Assembly: GCA_025360805.1 (NCBI GenBank)
Contig: JANYBK010000084.1
Location: forward strand, 1-36,093
From: Methanomicrobiales archaeon
Lineage (GTDB): Archaea > Halobacteriota > Methanomicrobia > Methanomicrobiales > Methanospirillaceae
Reading direction: 5' to 3'
Length of the DNA stretch: 36,093 nt
Below the pieces are notes generated by a model, which saw nothing but the letters and a program-made list of their open reading frames with translations, had not been told where the DNA came from and searched no databases. The position numbers and the translations under genes were made by a program. This document shows positions 20,826 to 30,769 of the stretch, one piece after another; the stretch's first letter is position 1; each line of letters begins with the position of its first letter.

Positions 20826-21689
20826 TCATTCCCACCGGTGCTGGTACCCGCGTTTTGAAAGCGGTTTGCCATCGACAGTGACAGAATTTTCTGTCACAAC
20901 GGTCCCGATCACAGTTGAAGGTACTCCGTTAACAGGGAATTTGTCAGGAGAGATTGTGAAGATTAATTCGTAATCACCACCGCCATAAAGAGCGAGTTCT
21001 CGTGCCTGTTCAACGGGGATACCTGCAGCAAGGGGCAGTTTTTTCGTATCGATTGTAAACCCGCACCCGTTCACGCTCATCAGATCGTAGAGCGAGAGGG
21101 CAATCCCGTCACTGTCATCCATCATCGCACTTACGCCGGCCCGGCCGAGACGCTGGCCCTCCTCCACCCGGGGTTGCGGCTCGAAGAGCGCTTTCTCATA
21201 CTGGAGATACCCGTCAAGCCATGCCTGTGCCTGCCCGGGTATGCCAGTGATGCAGACGAGATCACCCGGTCGGGCCCCCCTCCTCCGCACAATAGAGTCT
21301 TTACCAACCAGTCCCAGTCCGGTTGTCACTACAGTGAGCTCCCCATGACGGTCGATATCGCCACCGATGATAGCCGCACCATATTTTTTGCAGCAATCCT
21401 GTGCACCCTGCATCACCCCGGACAGGGACTTCCAGTCATCCAACCCTACGGCAATCAGGAGATATTTTGGAGCCGCCCCCATGCTAGCAATATCTGAGAG
21501 GGTAACTGCTGCGCTCATCCAGCCTGCCTGCCAGTCGGTCATACCTTTTACAAAGTCCGTAGTCCGGTGGAGCATGTCGGTAGTCACTACCATGATCTGT
21601 TCACCACACGGCAGTTCTGCACAGTCATCAAGGCAGTTCTCCCGCCCGACTATGCCTGTCACTACGTTCAGGAGCTCGCGGTCATCCAC
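20826..21689 (-). CDS. thiL: thiamine-monophosphate kinase
   Basis: A 287-residue member of the PurM/ThiL family, which phosphorylates thiamine monophosphate to thiamine diphosphate. Recognisable elements are 'DDCAELPCG' near residue 20, the metal/ATP-binding 'TTDMLHRTTDF', 'AAVTLSDIASMGAAPKYLLIAVGL' (~61-84), 'GGDIDRHGELTVVTTGLG' and the C-terminal 'MDDSDGIALSLYDLM' and 'GGGDYELIFTI'. Length is slightly below the usual 300-330. The first ATG (21689) overlaps the end of the DUF460 gene by eight bases, so it is translated in the same operon as RIO2 and DUF460. Confidence 0.95.
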   Translation of the reverse strand: MDDRELLNVVTGIVGRENCLDDCAELPCGEQIMVVTTDMLHRTTDFVKGMTDWQAGWMSAAVTLSDIASMGAAPKYLLIAVGLDDWKSLSGVMQGAQDCCKKYGAAIIGGDIDRHGELTVVTTGLGLVGKDSIVRRRGARPGDLVCITGIPGQAQAWLDGYLQYEKALFEPQPRVEEGQRLGRAGVSAMMDDSDGIALSLYDLMSVNGCGFTIDTKKLPLAAGIPVEQARELALYGGGDYELIFTISPDKFPVNGVPSTVIGTVVTENSVTVDGKPLSKRGYQHRWE

Positions 21690-23649
21690 TTTTTTTCACT
21701 TCCTTACCCCTTTCGCTCTTGTACTCCTTGAAGATGTGCTCAATCATATCGGTTTGTTTCTCCCGCTCATGCCGGATCTGCACTCCCTGCCACTGGAGCA
21801 GAGCATGATCAAGCGCTTCCTTGCCGCAGAGTCCCTGCCTGCCCCGCACCTGGACCCGGGCCTCCTTATCGGAAAGGAGCGGCACACCGGCTTCACGAAA
21901 CACAGGGGTGAGCAGCGGATCGCTCCCGGCAAGAACAGCAGCGCCGGCAACGACTGCTTTAACACGTATTTCAGCGAGATCCTTGACAACGTTTCTTCCC
22001 CAGCCATCAATCCGGGTGACAAAAATAACGTCTCCTTCATCTATTCCCACATCCTCTGCGAGCTTGCGAAGACCCTCTTTTGTCAGCGCATCCATAACTT
22101 TTACCGGAACCACTTCGCCATCCATGGAGAGTTCCGCAAACTGTTTGATCCTTGCTAACCGTTTGGCAAGGTTACGGTTGTGGCGTTCCTCTTTTCGTAA
22201 ATGTTTTTTTAAGTTCTGAATAATCACATCCTTTTTTACCACTTCGGCATCCTTTGCCAGTTCGGAATCCCGGTTGGTCTGAACCTTCCGGATGCGTGCC
22301 TGCAGGCGTCGAATCTCAAACTCTTTTTCCTTTATCTCTTCTTGTAACTCGGCAACAAATGTGCGGAGTCGCTTTACCATCCCGTCCAGCACCCGCACCC
22401 GCTCATCGTGTTTTTCATCAACAAGGGCCGGAGGTGCTTCCCGTTGGGGATTGGGTGCTGCATCACCATTTATCTCTGCAAGAGCGTGCTCTAACGATTG
22501 CCCCCGGATTACCCGTGCCCGTACTTCATCGAGATCGTACCCCGGGGGAATCCGTTTTAACAGGTTCTGGAACTTGTGCCGGTACTGGCGGTATGCATCA
22601 AGGGCTGCCGAGAGCGCGTCCCGCTCGTGATCATTTTCATACGAAAAAGAGGCTGTAATCTCCAGTTTGGTCTCAACACTCACGTCCTGTTTTGGAGTAT
22701 ATGCAATCGCGCTGAATGCCCTGCGGATCTTCTCAACCGAAAAGGGCATTTCCCGAACATCGGATGCGATAATGAGAGGTTTTCCGATTTTGTAGAGTGA
22801 CTCGATCACATCCCCCATATTCATTTGACGGGAACTCTGGAGGTGCAGCAGGGTCCCGTCAAGATCGAGTACAGCAACAGCAGTAGTAGTCCCCGGGTCA
22901 ATCCCGATGATCAGATACCGCGGCTTTCCGGAGAGCGGGCGGTACTGGATCCGTTCGAGCCGTTTGCCATTGATCCTCACCTGGACATCGGAACCCCGGT
23001 AGGTGGAGACGGGTACCTGATCACGGGTAGTAAATACACGGAATACCACCCGGCTGCACCCGCCAAATGCCCGGATCTCCTTCTTCTCATACCTTAACCC
23101 GGCTGCAACGAGTGCCTGATCGATCTCCCGCCCTTTAAGTTGGACTGCCCCGTGAATCTTGCGCACGTACCGGTTCTGGCTCCACCCCCCCTTTCCTAAC
23201 GAGCGGTGTCGGCTGACTATGATCTCGCTCTCGTTTTCAAACGCGATTACTTCTGCGCCGGCACCAAGAGAAGCTACCTGTGCGCTGGTCCGGGCTTCAG
23301 CAAAAGGATCGAAACGGTTGAAACTGATGTTATACCTGGCTGCAACCTTACCAAGTGTCTCCTTATGTTCACCCCCGGTCACCTGTACGAGCCGGGTCTG
23401 CGGGGGGAGACCCTGTAAAAAAAAGTAGAGTTCACGCTGGTCAGCAGCAATCTCCTGCAGGCTGTCCACAGCAAGGATATCCGGTTGTTCCTCCCTGAGC
23501 ATGCGGAAAAGCCGGAACAGTGAGACTTCAGATTCGCTAACTATTGTCTGGCCTGACATCCGGACCAGAGCATAGAGTGGCCTGCGGGTACGCGACCTCA
23601 CCGATCCTTTGATGATATCGATGCCAAAGACGTTTAGCCGGTCACGCAT
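21682..23649 (-). CDS. DUF460 protein, predicted RNase H-like nuclease with coiled coil
   Basis: A 655-residue archaea-specific protein. The first ~200 residues hold a RuvC/RNase H-like fold ('VFGIDIIKGS'), the centre repeats such a fold ('LIIGIDPGTTTAVAVLDLDG', near 245-265) with the D-P-G-T-T-T nucleotide/metal loop, a long charged coiled coil follows (~430-520, Arg/Lys/Glu-rich), and a C-terminal domain (~525-655) ends the protein. The family is annotated as a predicted nuclease of the RuvC/YqgF superfamily; no biochemical role is known to me. It overlaps rio2 upstream (16 bases) and thiL downstream (8 bases), so coupling is strong and a role in rRNA processing next to RIO2 is plausible. 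Confidence 0.9.
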   Translation of the reverse strand: MRDRLNVFGIDIIKGSVRSRTRRPLYALVRMSGQTIVSESEVSLFRLFRMLREEQPDILAVDSLQEIAADQRELYFFLQGLPPQTRLVQVTGGEHKETLGKVAARYNISFNRFDPFAEARTSAQVASLGAGAEVIAFENESEIIVSRHRSLGKGGWSQNRYVRKIHGAVQLKGREIDQALVAAGLRYEKKEIRAFGGCSRVVFRVFTTRDQVPVSTYRGSDVQVRINGKRLERIQYRPLSGKPRYLIIGIDPGTTTAVAVLDLDGTLLHLQSSRQMNMGDVIESLYKIGKPLIIASDVREMPFSVEKIRRAFSAIAYTPKQDVSVETKLEITASFSYENDHERDALSAALDAYRQYRHKFQNLLKRIPPGYDLDEVRARVIRGQSLEHALAEINGDAAPNPQREAPPALVDEKHDERVRVLDGMVKRLRTFVAELQEEIKEKEFEIRRLQARIRKVQTNRDSELAKDAEVVKKDVIIQNLKKHLRKEERHNRNLAKRLARIKQFAELSMDGEVVPVKVMDALTKEGLRKLAEDVGIDEGDVIFVTRIDGWGRNVVKDLAEIRVKAVVAGAAVLAGSDPLLTPVFREAGVPLLSDKEARVQVRGRQGLCGKEALDHALLQWQGVQIRHEREKQTDMIEHIFKEYKSERGKEVKKSG

Positions 23650-24488
23650 TGAATCGCATCCTCACGGTCATACTTCAGTTTGTATTTCCGTTTAAAATAC
23701 GTGAGGATGTTATCAATATCACGGTTAATGGTGTATTCTGCGTTCGGGTGAGTGGTCTCTATCCATTGGGGCCAGTCGATGAGCACGCACCTGCCATCTT
23801 CTATGAGAATATTGTATTCCGAGAGATCGGCATGGATGAGACCTGCCTGATATGCTGTGCGGACGTTTGAGAGGATTTCATCGAGCACAGTAGCAGGAGC
23901 CTCCAGCAGGCAGCGGTTTAGGTTAGTCCCCTGGATCAGCGCCATAACCACTGTATGCCGGTTCTGCGCTATTGGGAGCGGAACACTGACCTTTGGGTGA
24001 AGAGTAACAAGCGCCTTGTACTCGCGTTCCGCTGAGAGCTTCGAGGCTATGAGCCATGGACAATGCCCATCTGTCATGTACTCCCGGTTGACCCGGGCCG
24101 AATTGAAGGATCGCCCCCCGACCCGGTGGAATTTGATGGCAACCGGCCCAAGACCAAGAGCTTCATAGACAACCGATTCCTTTCCTTCACCCAGCTGCGT
24201 TCCCAAGGCCGAGATGGTTCCTTTCCGGGTGAGACTTGCAAGTGCAAGCGTGTCATATCCCCCAAAAACAAGTGCATACCCATCGTAGGGTACCGGGTTG
24301 AACCGAACCATGCCCCATTCAATAAGGCGTGCCAGCCGGTAATTCACTTCAGATTCTGCAAACCCGGTACTGGTGATTAACTGTTCGAGAGGGACCCATG
24401 CATAGCGTGACATCTGGCGCTCAAGTACCGATAGAATGGTCTTTTCATATTTATGCAGGGTGCGGATATGTTCCGCAGAGACAGCCAT
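23634..24488 (-). CDS. rio2: RIO2-family serine/threonine protein kinase
   Basis: A 284-residue atypical kinase. Residues 1-90 form the winged helix that defines RIO2. The flexible loop reads 'LGTQLGEGKESVVYEA' (95-110), the ATP lysine is K119, the catalytic loop is H219-A-D221-L-S-E-Y-N, and the metal-binding aspartate is D238 in 'IDWPQWIETTHPNA'. RIO2 acts in late maturation of the small ribosomal subunit. The ATG at 24488 is chosen since it begins the winged helix; upstream minus-strand ATTTTATAG (~24514-24522) is ~30 bases away, consistent with a leaderless message. It is the first gene of a rio2 - DUF460 - thiL operon. Confidence 0.95.
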   Translation of the reverse strand: MAVSAEHIRTLHKYEKTILSVLERQMSRYAWVPLEQLITSTGFAESEVNYRLARLIEWGMVRFNPVPYDGYALVFGGYDTLALASLTRKGTISALGTQLGEGKESVVYEALGLGPVAIKFHRVGGRSFNSARVNREYMTDGHCPWLIASKLSAEREYKALVTLHPKVSVPLPIAQNRHTVVMALIQGTNLNRCLLEAPATVLDEILSNVRTAYQAGLIHADLSEYNILIEDGRCVLIDWPQWIETTHPNAEYTINRDIDNILTYFKRKYKLKYDREDAIQCVTG

Positions 24489-24601
24489 GATCGTTAAAGT
24501 GATGCTGTCCCGGACTATAAAATCACTCCTTAACGGTACCAAAGATCATTTTATCACAACCTTAAACATCTTTTATCCTCCAGAATAAAACAGGTAACAA
24601 T

Positions 24602-25492
24602 ATGCAGTGCAGCAGATGCCACCGGGATGAGATTTTTTTCCAGCCTTATTCGGGGCTTCATCTCTGCAGTCAGCATCTTATTGCAGATGTGGAAGCCAAG
24701 GCAAAAAAGATGATACGGGCACAAGGCTGGTTAAAAACCGGTGATCAAATAGCTGTACTTCTTTCAGGAAACCAAAATAGCAGCGCGCTCCTTTATTTTT
24801 TAAAAAAACTCACTGCAGAGCGCTGCGACATACGGATTAGCGCAATAACTGTAGCAGATTGTATTGGACTCCACAGCAACACTTCGCATGCGAAACGTAT
24901 CGCAGAGCGTCTGGATGCGGATTTAATTGAGGTTTCATTACCGGAAGAGTTCAGGATTGGGACGGATACAATTACAGGGAAAAAACAGGATATATCATCC
25001 CCGCAAATGTTACCGGCATCCCGCTCCATCATCGACATGATTGCACAGCAGCATGGGATCACAAAAATCGCATGGGGACTCTGCCTTGATGAGGCAGCGG
25101 GTGTGGTACTGGAATGCGTCATCCGTGGCGATGGGGAAAAACTGGTCAGGAGCAGCTCCCGTCAGGACGGACCCCTTCGAATCTGTCCGTTCATATCGGT
25201 AACAGCCACGGAAGTATCCCAGTATGCAGAACTATGCGGATGTGGCGATGAACCGATACCCCGTCCTGAACCGGGAGACGGGCTGCACAAGGATACGATC
25301 GCTATGCTGAACGGCTATACGAACAATCATCCTGAAACAAAATATGCACTCCTGAACCTTGGAGAAAACCTGTCGGGGTCTCCCGGGGGAATCGCAGGTC
25401 TCATCCATGCATGTGAATGGTACAGGGAATACCATTGTGGGTGCGGCAATGACGGCTCAATACAGATTGAGGTGAAAAATGGCGCAACCTAA
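24602..25492 (+). CDS. degenerate Ncs6/TtcA-like PP-loop protein
   Basis: A 296-residue relative of archaeal Ncs6/TtcA tRNA thiolases. The N-terminal zinc finger is kept (C3, C6, C22, H25, with 'PYSGLHLCSQH'). The PP-loop, normally S-G-G-x-D-S, reads S55-G-N-Q-N-S60, so the glycine and aspartate are lost. The usual C-x2-C pair before the 'T-K-I-A-x-G' strand is absent (residues ~131-150). 'AWGLCLDEAA' resembles the 'G-H-N-L-D-D-x-A' segment with altered residues. It is therefore likely unable to adenylate and thiolate tRNA in the ordinary way and may be a regulatory or scaffold paralogue. Its end overlaps the potassium-channel start by 14 bases, and nadE follows. Upstream lies the divergent rio2 operon. 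Confidence 0.8.
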   Translation: MQCSRCHRDEIFFQPYSGLHLCSQHLIADVEAKAKKMIRAQGWLKTGDQIAVLLSGNQNSSALLYFLKKLTAERCDIRISAITVADCIGLHSNTSHAKRIAERLDADLIEVSLPEEFRIGTDTITGKKQDISSPQMLPASRSIIDMIAQQHGITKIAWGLCLDEAAGVVLECVIRGDGEKLVRSSSRQDGPLRICPFISVTATEVSQYAELCGCGDEPIPRPEPGDGLHKDTIAMLNGYTNNHPETKYALLNLGENLSGSPGGIAGLIHACEWYREYHCGCGNDGSIQIEVKNGAT

Positions 25493-27188
25493 ACGGGGGC
25501 GGATATGGCGGGTGATCAGGAACTCGCCGGGCATCCAGATATCCATTTATTTTTTTGCGTTTGCCTTGCTCATCGCCCTCTACACGTACATATTCCATAC
25601 GGTATATCCTGTACTTGAGAACAAACCCATCGACTGGGCTCAGGCACTGCTGTTTGTAGTCGAATCGATGACCACCGTCGGATATGGCTGGCTGCTCCCG
25701 TTTTCCAATGATCTCACCATGCTCCTTGCGATCCAGATTATGCTGTCCGGCGTGATCATGATCTTCGTCGTCATCCCACTCCTCCTCGCCCCGTACCTCA
25801 CCACACTCCTTGCACCCGCCCCCCCGCGAAATACCCCGCATGTATTGTCAGGACATACCGTTGTGATGGGATATGATGAGCTCACCCGTTCGGTTATTGA
25901 CAGCCTTACGATCTCAGAACACGATGTCGTAATTATTGAACAGGACAAGGTAATTGCCCTTGAGATTGCCACGCATTACCGGAAACGCGCCTACGTGATC
26001 TGGGGGGATTATACAGATCCCTCAACGTGGGCGGCGGCACACCTTGATAAGGCCCGGAATATTGTTATCTGCAAAGATGAGCGGCAGACTGCCAGTATTG
26101 TTCTTGGCATTCGTGAACTGGTAAAAGGAAAGATCATTTCAGTAGTGGACAAGTTATCCTTTGAACGCTATCTCCGTTATGCGGGGGCAGATTACGTACT
26201 GTCCCCCAAACATGCAACCGGGAGAATTTTAGCGCGGCATGCCGTTCTCAACCCCAGCGGGGATGCAGAGCCGGATATTCCCGGGCTGGACAGGATCAAC
26301 ATCAATCTTGAACACACGGCAGAACAGGAGCTCCGGCTCATCAACATTCCGGTGGTTTTCGGATGCAGGGCGGCATTCAAGTCCCTTGCAGATCTCCAGC
26401 TTTTTGAGCGATTCGGTATTATAGTGCCATTCCTCTGGAAGGCCGGGAAATTCATTCCCCAACCCAGTGACGATATTATTGTCGACAACATGACATCACT
26501 CTTCCTTTTTGGCAGGGCTGAATCTATTGTCACTGCAATCCGGGAAGAGTTCAATACCGACGGGTGTGCAGATGCTTTCGCGGTTATCGCAGGATATGGG
26601 GATGTTGGTGCAGGTGCATACCAGGAACTCCGTGCATCCGGAGTCTCCTGTATTGTCGTGGACTCAAAACAACAGGCCGTGGAGCAGGTTGTTGGCAATG
26701 CCGAGGATGAAGCGGTGTTGAAAAAGGCCCGCATCGAAGAAGCACGGTTCTGTATTGTTGCCCTGAATGATGACGATCTGAACATATTTACCACCCTGAT
26801 GGCCCGGAATCTCAACCCGGTCATAAGGATCCTTGCCCGGGCCAATGAACCGGCAACTGTTGAGAAACTCTACCGTGCAGGTGCGGATAACGTGGCCCTC
26901 CTTCCCATGATCGGGGGGCAGACTATCGCAAGGATCATCCTGGCAGGTACTGCCACCATTCTTCTCGAACTGCCAAACGGAGACATTGTAATCCTGAAAC
27001 ATGCCAATAAAACCTATTCAAAACCCGTGAAATGGTTCATACGGAAAACCGGGGTCCGGATCATTGGAATCGAGAGCCAGAGCCGCTCGATCATTGCCCC
27101 GGAGGCAGAAGAGATCATTTTAGAAGGAGATGCCCTAATCGCAGTCGGGAATACCGAACAGTTGAAAAAGTTCATTCATCTGGTATAA
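25479..27188 (+). CDS. potassium channel with two RCK (TrkA-N/TrkA-C) domains
   Basis: A 569-residue membrane protein of the MthK/GsuK type. Helix 1 is at ~20-46, the pore has the selectivity filter T66-V-G-Y-G70, and helix 2 lies at ~80-112. Two cytoplasmic RCK units follow. The first TrkA-N has a degenerate Rossmann loop ('VVMGYDELT' near 130, in place of G-x-G-x-x-G); the second has the canonical 'GYGDVGAGA' near 370. Each is followed by a TrkA-C part. Such domains bind NAD(H), nucleotides or ions and gate the pore. The start overlaps the preceding gene by 14 bases, and nadE begins 10 bases after its stop. Confidence 0.93.
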   Translation: MAQPKRGRIWRVIRNSPGIQISIYFFAFALLIALYTYIFHTVYPVLENKPIDWAQALLFVVESMTTVGYGWLLPFSNDLTMLLAIQIMLSGVIMIFVVIPLLLAPYLTTLLAPAPPRNTPHVLSGHTVVMGYDELTRSVIDSLTISEHDVVIIEQDKVIALEIATHYRKRAYVIWGDYTDPSTWAAAHLDKARNIVICKDERQTASIVLGIRELVKGKIISVVDKLSFERYLRYAGADYVLSPKHATGRILARHAVLNPSGDAEPDIPGLDRININLEHTAEQELRLINIPVVFGCRAAFKSLADLQLFERFGIIVPFLWKAGKFIPQPSDDIIVDNMTSLFLFGRAESIVTAIREEFNTDGCADAFAVIAGYGDVGAGAYQELRASGVSCIVVDSKQQAVEQVVGNAEDEAVLKKARIEEARFCIVALNDDDLNIFTTLMARNLNPVIRILARANEPATVEKLYRAGADNVALLPMIGGQTIARIILAGTATILLELPNGDIVILKHANKTYSKPVKWFIRKTGVRIIGIESQSRSIIAPEAEEIILEGDALIAVGNTEQLKKFIHLV

Positions 27189-27197
27189 CAAAGAGAT

Positions 27198-27980
27198 ATG
27201 CGCATGGTAGCAGAGCTTGGGTGCAGATTGGGACAGATCGAACAGATGATAAGGTACGCCTACTGGAACAGCGGGTGTTTGGGGATTGTCATTGGCGTAA
27301 GCGGCGGGGTTGATTCTGCGGTAGCAGCAGCGTTCTGCTGTCGGGCAATCGGTCCTGAAAAGGTGCTTGGGCTATCTCTGCCTTCTGCAATAAGCAATCC
27401 TGAAGATTGTAAGGATGCGGCAACACTCTGTGCCCAGCTTGGCATAGAGCACAAAATAGTCAGCATAGAACCGATGCTTGAGGGTTTTAAATCCATACCG
27501 GATTATTCCCCCTCGCATTTCCTTTCGGGAAATCTCATGGCGCGTATCAGGATGGCAGTAATCTATTATCACGCAAACCGGGACAACCGGCTGGTCTGCG
27601 GCACATCCAACAGGAGCGAATATATGCTCGGTTACTGCACAAAATTCGGGGATAATGCAGCAGACGTCCAGCCGATCGTTCACATGTATAAGGATGAAGT
27701 CTATGAAGCTGCGAGGGAACTGGACATTCCGGATCCTATCATGAAAAAAGCACCTTCAGCAGGATTGTGGGAAGGCCAGAGTGACGAGAGCGAGATCGGG
27801 CTTTCTTATGCCGAGATCGATCTATCGTTACGGGCTCTTGAACTGAACAAGTGGAAGGCAATAACATCAACGGAAGAAAAGGTCCTCGCACTGGTGAAAA
27901 AAAGCGAGCATAAACGACTCCCCGCACCTAATCTTTTAGCAGTTCTGGAAAAATGCCGGGATACTGTTCCGGGAAATTGA
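27198..27980 (+). CDS. nadE: NH3-dependent NAD+ synthetase
   Basis: A 260-residue PP-loop enzyme completing NAD synthesis from deamido-NAD, ATP and ammonia. The P-loop is canonical, S35-G-G-V-D-S40. Further signatures are 'GLSLPS' near 60, 'NLMARIRMAVIYYHAN' (~112-127), 'GTSNRSEYMLGYCTKFGD' (~134-151) and 'KKAPSAGLWEGQSDESEIG'. It has no glutaminase domain, so it depends on free ammonia, as usual in methanogens. The gene is tightly linked to the channel (10-base gap). Its last 53 bases overlap the 3' end of the convergent pgi gene. Confidence 0.97.
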   Translation: MRMVAELGCRLGQIEQMIRYAYWNSGCLGIVIGVSGGVDSAVAAAFCCRAIGPEKVLGLSLPSAISNPEDCKDAATLCAQLGIEHKIVSIEPMLEGFKSIPDYSPSHFLSGNLMARIRMAVIYYHANRDNRLVCGTSNRSEYMLGYCTKFGDNAADVQPIVHMYKDEVYEAARELDIPDPIMKKAPSAGLWEGQSDESEIGLSYAEIDLSLRALELNKWKAITSTEEKVLALVKKSEHKRLPAPNLLAVLEKCRDTVPGN

Positions 27981-28635
27981 GGAACGTAAGCATGGTCTCA
28001 TTCCCGATAAGATTGTAGAGTGGCCCCTTACAGAGCCGGTGCATTGCAGATCTCCAGTGTGCGCCGGGAGATCTTACCTCCGGTATCTTTGGGTAATGGG
28101 GATTTTTCCGCAGGTTGCCATCACTCATCGCATAATATGCTGCACCATGGAGAGTCTCGTACTCCCCATATTCGCTCTCAAAAGCAGTAGATACGATGTT
28201 GGCCATTGTAAGGGTCTTTTCCACAGAAGGATTGATCGATATGTGCCCGTAATCCGGGGGGATAATTACAATATCACCGGCATGGGCTGAGATCATCACA
28301 ATATCATCCAGTCTACGCAACTGAAGCAGGTATTTTGCCTCGCCTTCTAAAACTTCATAGACTTCCGGATACCCGATACCGACAGGATTTTTCGGGTGAT
28401 AATGTCCCTTGGTCTTCACCCATTCGCCGCAGAGATTGCAAGGGGGAATAACTGTGATATCATAGCGCAGCTTGCGACTGTGCAACCATTGCCGGTCCGT
28501 GTCTGACTTTGCCAGATCGCGGTACATAAAATAAAGAGAGGTATTGCCGTTGCACGAATTGTCGGCAAGGACAGACCGCATCTCCTCAATTGTCCGGACT
28601 GAGGGCAAAGGGAGAGCCCCATCCCATCCACGCAT
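27928..28635 (-). CDS. pgi: cupin-type archaeal glucose-6-phosphate isomerase
   Basis: A 235-residue protein of the archaeal cupin PGI family, unrelated to the classical enzyme. The metal-binding cupin motif 1 reads 'TKGHYHPKNPVGIGYPEVYEVLEG' (around residues 76-99), giving two His and a Glu; the second histidine motif is 'PPDYGHISIN' (~129-138). It interconverts glucose- and fructose-6-phosphate. ATG 28635 shares its A with the stop of the upstream S-layer-like gene (TGATG), so it is translationally coupled; the in-frame GTG at 28638 is less likely. A C-terminal extension of ~50 residues follows the cupin core. Its 3' end overlaps nadE. Confidence 0.95.
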   Translation of the reverse strand: MRGWDGALPLPSVRTIEEMRSVLADNSCNGNTSLYFMYRDLAKSDTDRQWLHSRKLRYDITVIPPCNLCGEWVKTKGHYHPKNPVGIGYPEVYEVLEGEAKYLLQLRRLDDIVMISAHAGDIVIIPPDYGHISINPSVEKTLTMANIVSTAFESEYGEYETLHGAAYYAMSDGNLRKNPHYPKIPEVRSPGAHWRSAMHRLCKGPLYNLIGNETMLTFLNFPEQYPGIFPELLKD

Positions 28636-29924
28636 CACTTCTTCTTTCTCATTACAAGTAAATAATACCCGGCGCTGATGCCAATAATCACAATGAGAAC
28701 GAGTAGGGGGAGCATTGATGAAAGACCACTGGATTCAGGTTTTGGATCTATTAAAACAATTACTTTGAAGGTATCTGAGATCTGGCTGTTGTCGAGCGAA
28801 TCCCGGTAGCGTATATCAGCATCCAGCAGATAGGTCTTTATCTCTGCATCATCTCTGGCAGATATTTGATACCGGGCGGTGACATTTTCCCCGGGTTTTA
28901 TGTCCCCTATATAGGCAGTATCATCTGAACTTGTAAACGGATCAACTGCAGAGATCCGTGCCTGTGAATGATAGGCCGTGGTATCACCATTATTCCGGTA
29001 ATTAACGGTAATTACGTTGTCAGAACCCGGAATGACACGGGCCGGTGCTGAGGACACTGAAAAAGTAAGTTTTCCCCCAATGGGAATACCCACCGTATCT
29101 GTAGCAGATGTAACAATATCTCCTTCCCGGTTTTCATAAGTAACTGCAACATCAACAGGATAGGTCTGTTTTGCTGCATCTCCTGATACTGCCACCTTAT
29201 ACCTGCAGGAAACAGTGGCATTGCGCGGGAAGTCCCCGATAAAAACGCTGCTGTCGGTGGGGATGATTGGGCTCTGACCGCTACGAAGAATCTTTAATGT
29301 TGCTTTCTTCCCGTCTTCAAATCCGATATTTTGTATTTTCAGGTTGAGATATCCGCCACTCCCGACATTTAAGTTTTCAGGCACTGCTTCAATGACGTTA
29401 ATCTTAACCTGAGGTTTGATCTTTATTGTCAGAGGGAAGGTCTCACTGACTTTTCGGTAATGATTCTGAAGATATTCACCCGCATCATTGTTAGCAGATT
29501 CAAGGTAAGTGTATTGGATCGTGAGAGGGATCTGATATTCCCCCATAGAGGCGTTGGACAGGATTTTTGCCAGGATCGGGACTGTTACTAATCCCTGCGA
29601 CTTGATATCACCGATGTTTTTGGGATCGGATTTGATAACTACCGGTGCACTGCCTGCACCCAGTCCGACCATAACCATCTTAGCGGTTGTCGGGAGATCA
29701 TCGCGATCAATTGTCCCGATAGTAAGTTGTTTTATATCGTTCACTCCGCTGTTCCGTACAAGGACATTTACAGTAACATCCTGTCCCGGGGTGAATTCAT
29801 TGACACCCGAGATTGTTGCTGACATGTGAGGACTTGCCCCAACATAGGTGTCCACCCCCATCACTGGCATGATAGCGATAAGCGACAGTATGAGGAAGAT
29901 AAGAACTGATTTTGGATATTTCAT
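28635..29924 (-). CDS. S-layer-like (COG1361) exported protein with C-terminal anchor
   Basis: A 429-residue secreted, membrane-anchored protein. A signal peptide spans residues 1-~23 ('FLILSLIAIMPVMG'), three to four NEW3/CARDB-like beta-sandwich repeats follow, each with a 'F-T-P-G-Q-D-V-T-V-N-V-x-V-R-N-S-G' or 'G-x-x-N-x-x-V-x-Y-R-N-N-G' strand motif, and a membrane helix at ~405-425 is capped by the stop-transfer R-K-K-K. It would sit on the outside of the cell. The promoter TATA lies within the palindrome at 29942-29957, so it is probably controlled by the divergent TrmB-type regulator. The pgi gene is coupled downstream, a curious pairing. Confidence 0.85.
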   Translation of the reverse strand: MKYPKSVLIFLILSLIAIMPVMGVDTYVGASPHMSATISGVNEFTPGQDVTVNVLVRNSGVNDIKQLTIGTIDRDDLPTTAKMVMVGLGAGSAPVVIKSDPKNIGDIKSQGLVTVPILAKILSNASMGEYQIPLTIQYTYLESANNDAGEYLQNHYRKVSETFPLTIKIKPQVKINVIEAVPENLNVGSGGYLNLKIQNIGFEDGKKATLKILRSGQSPIIPTDSSVFIGDFPRNATVSCRYKVAVSGDAAKQTYPVDVAVTYENREGDIVTSATDTVGIPIGGKLTFSVSSAPARVIPGSDNVITVNYRNNGDTTAYHSQARISAVDPFTSSDDTAYIGDIKPGENVTARYQISARDDAEIKTYLLDADIRYRDSLDNSQISDTFKVIVLIDPKPESSGLSSMLPLLVLIVIIGISAGYYLLVMRKKK

Positions 29925-29989: not shown

Positions 29990-30769
29990 ATGACACCCGC
30001 CCTCCCCGGCTCTGAAAGAGTTATTGAATGCCTCAAATCTCTTGGTTTGACAAAATATGAAGCGCTGGTGTATATTGCACTTTTAAAGGTGGTGAGCGCA
30101 ACCGCCACCGAGATCCATGAGATATCCACAGTTCCGCGCGCATCTGTATACCCGGTACTCGATCAACTTCACGAAAAAAAACTCATATCCATAGCCCGTT
30201 CAACCCCCAAGCGGTTTGCTGCTCTCTCTCCGGAGGAAGGGGTTGCAATAATGATGAGCATGATTGAACGCGATGCTGCAGATGCCCGTGAGATCCTTTC
30301 TGCAATCCACCGTGAACGAATCAGCCATGAACCGAGCAGTGAGGAGCTGATATGGAATGTCTATGGTATCGAAAATATTCAGAGAAAACTCACCGATCTC
30401 ATAACATCTGCCCGTCATGATATAAGGATCATCACCCATCCCCAGATAATTTCCCCTGAACTCAGAGAGATACTCGATGATAAGGCAGATAAAGTAGATG
30501 TTGAGATTGTCACTCACCAGTGGGAGGGTACCAATAAGGGAAAAATGCGAGTGTATGTAAAGAAGCATCCGGAGATGCCCCGCGAACTTGAAGGGGTCAA
30601 AGATATGATGGCCGGTGGCATCTGCATTGTCGATAACCGGCGCGTACTGGTTATTTTGGGAACCGACAAAGAGGATGCAGTGGCACTCTTCTCAGAATCA
30701 GAGGGTTTTGTCCGGTTCTTCTCACGGTATTACAACCTGATCGTGGACTGGGCAAAAAAGCCGGAATGA
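29990..30769 (+). CDS. TrmB-family transcriptional regulator
   Basis: A 259-residue protein. The N-terminal winged helix-turn-helix (residues ~8-80) has the TrmB pattern 'LTKYEALVYIALLK...TATEIHEISTVPRASVYPVLDQLHEKKLI'. A coiled segment (~85-112) precedes a C-terminal PLD-like sensor domain ('LIWNVYGIENIQRKLTDLITSARHDIRII', ~117-146). TrmB proteins control sugar and central metabolism genes in archaea. The recognition helix 'RASVYPVLDQL' fits DNA binding at a palindrome like that at 29942-29957, between this gene and the S-layer/pgi pair. Coupling with pgi suggests a sugar-linked signal. The ligand is unknown. Confidence 0.92.
   Translation: MTPALPGSERVIECLKSLGLTKYEALVYIALLKVVSATATEIHEISTVPRASVYPVLDQLHEKKLISIARSTPKRFAALSPEEGVAIMMSMIERDAADAREILSAIHRERISHEPSSEELIWNVYGIENIQRKLTDLITSARHDIRIITHPQIISPELREILDDKADKVDVEIVTHQWEGTNKGKMRVYVKKHPEMPRELEGVKDMMAGGICIVDNRRVLVILGTDKEDAVALFSESEGFVRFFSRYYNLIVDWAKKPE

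Follow-up and report, generated by a model that had tools for sequence, protein, structure and literature searches.

A degenerate tRNA thiolase homologue beside an optional GsuK-type channel gene in a conserved Methanomicrobiales neighbourhood

The locus and its degenerate first gene

The window analysed here is a stretch of 36,093 nucleotides (nt), contig JANYBK010000084.1 of assembly GCA_025360805.1, from a Methanomicrobiales archaeon whose genome is 87.8% complete and groups with Methanoregula when its nearest related contigs and same-genus genomes are compared. It carries three consecutive genes on one strand: a degenerate relative of the tRNA U34 2-thiolase NcsA (gene 1), a potassium channel of the GsuK type (gene 2, kch) and the NAD+ synthetase gene nadE (gene 3). 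An earlier note on this DNA had taken the trio for a single potassium control system. We find instead that the trio is not a dedicated system of this kind and that the channel gene is an optional member of an old neighbourhood; our main result is the displaced thiolase, the protein families involved being already known.

The three open reading frames (ORFs) lie where the earlier note had placed them, with a 14-nt overlap between genes 1 and 2, while the gap between genes 2 and 3 measures 9 nt and not the 10 bases given there. From this overlap and spacing, the trio is probably co-transcribed, as had been proposed. For the ATG of the channel there is a Shine-Dalgarno-like GAGGTGA inside gene 1, which suggests that the channel is translationally coupled to gene 1. 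An Rfam scan of the window returned only four tRNAs and no riboswitch or other structured RNA upstream of the trio. At the other end, nadE and the convergent GPI-like gene share 53 nt (27928-27980). The identification of gene 3 as an NAD synthetase holds, with a score of 265 bits against an NCBIfam cutoff of 255 for NAD+ synthase and an SGGVDS loop; it is a full-length homologue of NadE (PDB 2e18) with no notable difference from it and is the sole NAD synthetase found in the window genome.

Gene 1 has lost the NcsA active site. The N-terminal LIM/zinc domain TtuA_LIM_N is its only Pfam domain above the cutoff (28.4 versus 27 bits), and it scores 55.7 bits with the NcsA model, on which an intact homologue in synteny reaches 204 bits. 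The N-terminal zinc motif is kept (C3-X2-C6...C22-X2-H25), but the PP-loop SGGKDS has become SGNQNS, the three cysteines that bind the [4Fe-4S] cluster (CxxC and the C of CPY) are lost, with the columns reading PQML and PRPE, and the C-terminal zinc site reads CEWY/GNDG. In most outgroups the in-locus copy has the full active site, with SGGKDS, CxYC, LDDEAQS, CPY and the C-terminal zinc site. The predicted fold of the window protein nevertheless has NcsA of M. maripaludis (PDB 6scy, PMC10067955) as its best PDB match (TM score 0.73), and the best 17 Foldseek matches are all NcsA or TtuA. The model has low confidence precisely where the Fe-S site used to be. By alignment and structure prediction, gene 1 is thus a descendant of NcsA/TtuA that has kept the fold and the N-terminal zinc site and has syntenic homologues with a full active site.

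The aligned in-locus copies across the order form a graded series of losses, partial in some Methanoregula and complete in the window genome, and in other copies going beyond it with internal deletions down to 183-226 amino acids (aa). The N-terminal zinc motif is present in nearly all of them, including those of 183 aa, with a single C-to-D change in one genome (G042; we use such handles for genomes, L for loci and f for families). A 226-aa form is predicted to fold with a pLDDT (predicted local distance difference test) of 82. Within the close clade, the ratio of nonsynonymous to synonymous substitution rates (dN/dS) is 0.335 for gene 1 overall and 0.08 to 0.13 for its neighbours (0.08 for the channel and 0.12 for nadE). 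It varies along gene 1, from 0.14 at residues 1-50 and 0.23 at 226-258 to 0.61 at 101-150, the former Fe-S site, with normal synonymous rates throughout. This indicates that the zinc domain is selected as a protein. A pseudogene as the sole account of gene 1 was rejected on the low dN/dS at residues 1-50, the normal synonymous rates and the predicted folds.

Table 1. Genes of the trio and of the conserved block around it in the window
Feature	Position	Strand	Evidence
Gene 1: degenerate in-locus NcsA (tRNA U34 2-thiolase relic), 296 aa	24602..25492	+	Domain/profile matches, motif alignment, predicted fold
Gene 2: GsuK-type potassium channel, 569 aa (two-transmembrane pore, RCK1, RCK2)	25479..27188	+	Domain matches, GsuK alignment, channel tree
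Gene 3: nadE, NH3-dependent NAD+ synthetase, 260 aa	27198..27980	+	Domain and family-cutoff matches
RIO2 kinase gene, divergent from the trio, ATG ~24488, in conserved block	23634..24542	-	Domain match, synteny
655-aa protein adjoining RIO2, in conserved block	21682..23649	-	ORF, synteny
GPI-like cupin gene, convergent with nadE	27928..28638	-	Domain match, synteny
CARDB/NEW3-domain protein, C-terminal transmembrane segment, in conserved block	28635..29924	-	Domain match, synteny
TrmB-like regulator, distal end of conserved block	29990..30769	+	Domain match, synteny

A second NcsA and the history of the neighbourhood

The in-locus NcsA has lost its active site four to six times, and the loss goes along with a second NcsA elsewhere in the genome. 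An intact in-locus copy occurs without a second NcsA in 24 genomes and with one in 4, whereas a degenerate copy occurs with a second NcsA in 46 and without one in 3, so that the in-locus copy is degenerate in 46 of the 50 genomes that have a second NcsA (Fisher p 9e-13, ignoring relatedness). On supported (starred) branches, four independent pairs could be formed, of which on average 3.6 agree with the prediction and 0 oppose it, which is suggestive. One genome (G054) has both a second NcsA and a damaged in-locus loop, SGDGDS, indicating the start of decay; within its genus, no other in-locus copy with motifs read shows this combination.

The second copies form a clade of their own (99*), and the in-locus copies cluster with NcsA from elsewhere in the Halobacteriota. 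A sulfur-carrier ORF of 63-110 aa that ends in GG lies directly upstream of every second copy read (36/36), whereas the 16 outgroup and 5 in-locus copies examined all lack one, and those ORFs that were tested match Pfam ThiS/SAMP2. An E1-like ThiF adjoins the cassette in three genomes (G045, G050, G054) and lies within ~5 kb of it in several Methanoregula; in G000 (L145:1491-2624, G000:C231) the cassette is flanked by NadA and FdhD. As far as the searched passages of Makarova and Koonin (2010, PMC2948915) go, a ThiS-family gene stands beside an NcsA/MesJ-type PP-loop ATPase gene in archaea (arCOG0042), an association that the second NcsA fits; those passages contain no account of a displaced resident NcsA.

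The order of the trio is far from chance and not unique to this genome, being found throughout the Methanomicrobiales down to 33-40% channel identity, so the refuting condition of the earlier note, an order confined to this genome, does not hold. The old neighbourhood of the Methanomicrobiales reads 655-aa gene (-), RIO2 (-), ncsA (+), [channel] (+), [nadE] (+), GPI (-), CARDB (-) and TrmB (+), and the oppositely oriented flanking genes recur alongside the trio, with the block kept whether or not the channel is present. Order conservation alone hence does not single out the trio. The convergent nadE-GPI pair is older than the order, occurring also in two genomes of family f9 outside it; the idea that the pair is specific to genomes with the channel was rejected, as it is present without the channel too.

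A dedicated potassium system would keep its three genes together and never apart, and in many genomes they are apart. Genes 1 and 3 lie side by side without the channel in eight genomes (G012, G013, G016, G018, G024, G028, G030 and G033) and in the greater part of families f4 and f6. Deleted or decaying channel remnants between an intact gene 1 and nadE in three more (G011, L137; G014, L121; G015, L122) point to recent loss. On a tree of RIO2 and its neighbour, channel presence changes 12 times and shows no correlation with the decay of gene 1. Two genomes have the channel with no nadE beside it (G037 and G279), and in family f5 gene 1 alone remains of the trio. These independent losses of the channel and of nadE show the trio to consist of independently dispensable members of an old neighbourhood, and the single control system envisaged in the earlier note does not stand.

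We consider it probable that the locus combines an old neighbourhood, a displaced and de-catalysed thiolase and an independently dispensable channel. Gene 1 would originally have been the organism's own tRNA U34 thiolase, inherited vertically. A second NcsA directly behind a ThiS/SAMP2-like carrier would have taken over thiolation in Methanoregula and several further lineages, after which the in-locus copy would have lost ATP and Fe-S catalysis while its product still folds and is under selection mainly for the N-terminal zinc domain. The channel may sit upstream of nadE for shared expression, and a metabolic tie of the channel to the NAD or energy state, though plausible, would come second. 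Several observations weigh against this history. The supported independent pairs are only four, giving a sign test p of 0.125; three draft genomes with a degenerate copy have no second NcsA (G025, 78% complete; G032, 77%; G052, 91%); the tree of RIO2 and its neighbour has long branches; and the adjacency of channel and nadE in a second class, described below, argues that their pairing is not purely neutral.

The channel and its link to nadE

The window channel matches GsuK of Geobacter sulfurreducens (PDB 4gx0-4gx5, PMC3510474) end to end (E 3e-45 with 4gx5, ~30% identity in the phmmer alignment), carries the Pfam domains Ion_trans_2 and TrkA_N and has two RCK domains, in agreement with the earlier description. 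The selectivity filter is intact (TTVGYGW), the TVGYG being followed by W here and by D in GsuK. The Rossmann motif of RCK1 is degenerate. In RCK2 the nucleotide motif G372-Y-G-D-V-G377...D395 is kept, and this GxGxxG...D is shared with GsuK and present in nearly all channels compared. A mapping of the GsuK residues onto the channel of the window recovered the ten published Ca and Zn ligands, all with one constant offset. By this mapping, the inter-subunit Ca2+ site is not kept: T183/N210/T214/E449/N450/Q453 read T/S/G/A/T/K, with one of the six ligands identical. The Zn ligands H359/C364/C388/H391 are lost.

GsuK is activated by NAD+ and ADP through RCK2, is not activated by NADH, ATP or AMP, and is inhibited by Ca2+ (PMC3510474). 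The earlier note's statement that RCK domains of channels such as GsuK respond to NAD/NADH is therefore right for NAD+ only. By its conserved motif, RCK2 of the window channel is likely to have ADP or NAD+ as an adenine-nucleotide ligand, and gating by either is plausible.

At least three lineages of related channels have lost the filter or carry a changed one, with TTT-GSL, TTVGYDLxTFFP and TTVGSG (L017 and L019 in G003 and G010; L142, L026, L027 and L141 in family f2; L139 in G002), and the RCK2 motif is intact in nearly all of these. These proteins might conduct without selectivity or act as nucleotide sensors in the membrane.

Outside the order, one small and distant class of the same phylum has the channel linked to nadE in all four of its channel-bearing genomes. 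The two genes are directly adjacent, with gaps of 1-4 nt, in G083, G113 and G118, and the order is kch-adkA-nadE in G129 (L176:5154-8148); these loci also end in a convergent GPI. We made a rough estimate that a same-strand neighbour match would arise by chance, over ~15 families, in near 1% of cases. A sample of 16 further GsuK-like loci from the phylum had nadE within ~5 kb in no case. A common clade of the nadE-linked channels inside and outside the order was rejected by the channel tree, where the distant-class channels sit in a different part, so that channel and nadE came to be paired either anciently or on two separate occasions. An adkA-nadE pair is kept without the channel in three genomes (G074, G092, G099). 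Literature searches for a link between nadE and channels, and between Methanoregula and TtuA, returned nothing relevant.

The main alternative to the history set out above is that kch and nadE are a functional pair, a GsuK-like channel that NAD+ or ADP would gate and that shares its expression with NAD synthetase, so that K+ flux follows the nicotinamide or adenylate state, with gene 1 as a passenger. We regard this as possible, if on balance doubtful. The distant-class arrangements give it modest support and a specific reason to suspect NAD+/ADP gating, and the way GsuK is opened and the conserved RCK2 motif also speak for it; the adenylate kinase gene between channel and nadE in G129 would fit an ADP- or NAD-type ligand. 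However, the channel has been lost many times with nadE kept, it persists in the two genomes that have no nadE next to it, and the nadE-GPI neighbourhood is older, so that the channel could have settled at an already stable position. Its Ca and Zn sites also differ from those of GsuK, and the nucleotide binding is a prediction from sequence.

Possible roles of the degenerate thiolase

One suggestion for the gene 1 protein, made by analogy, is that it acts as a non-catalytic partner of the second, carrier-linked NcsA, an archaeal parallel of Ctu2/Ncs2 with Ctu1/Ncs6. Ctu2 lacks the Fe-S cysteines and keeps its zinc fingers (PMC10067955), and gene 1 is likewise a catalytically dead member of the NcsA family beside an active one in the same genome, with its fold and N-terminal zinc site kept under selection. 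Decay is nearly confined to genomes with a coexisting active NcsA, the NcsA enzyme forms a homodimer (PMC10067955), and even the short forms are predicted to fold. The resident thiolase would then have been displaced and turned into a zinc-domain partner, an independent and repeatedly evolved counterpart of Ctu1/Ctu2 seen at successive stages, having arisen separately by decay of a resident copy beside an NcsA of another clade. We think such a putative partnership unlikely. Unlike in Ctu2, the zinc sites are not both kept, since the window protein has the N-terminal one only and many relatives have lost the C-terminal one; the lengths are highly variable (183-298 aa); eukaryotic Ctu2 is essential for thiolation; and in a 96% complete genome (G029) no match to the in-locus gene was found and the second NcsA is alone.

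It is also improbable, to a similar degree, that gene 1 is a decaying relic whose sole remaining role is to provide a promoter and translational coupling for the downstream genes. Its overlap with the channel start, a dN/dS 3-4 fold above that of the neighbours and the graded shortening across lineages are in line with this. The constraint on residues 1-50 at a normal synonymous rate argues, however, for selection on the protein and not on the DNA, the zinc motif survives even in the shortest copies, and gene 1 is kept where the channel, or the channel and nadE, are gone. The adenylate or NAD sensor proposed in the earlier note draws on PP-loop ancestry and co-location only and is very improbable, since the ATP-binding loop is destroyed, the decay of gene 1 shows no correlation with the channel and, at this position in genomes that lack a channel, the homologues of gene 1 are thiolases.

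Under the favoured history of displacement, the in-locus copies offer a natural series from intact alone, through intact beside a second copy and starting decay, to long degenerate and short degenerate forms. Such a series could trace the displacement of a tRNA-modifying enzyme and what is left of it, and it bears on the origin of the eukaryotic Ctu1/Ctu2 heterodimer. The locus is also a reminder that conserved gene order in archaea can mislead unless the flanking genes serve as a control. As a separate observation on the in-locus copies, one genome (G049, L129:4760-5947) has an NcsA of 395 aa that is otherwise intact and carries a repeat-like insertion at the C-terminal zinc finger.

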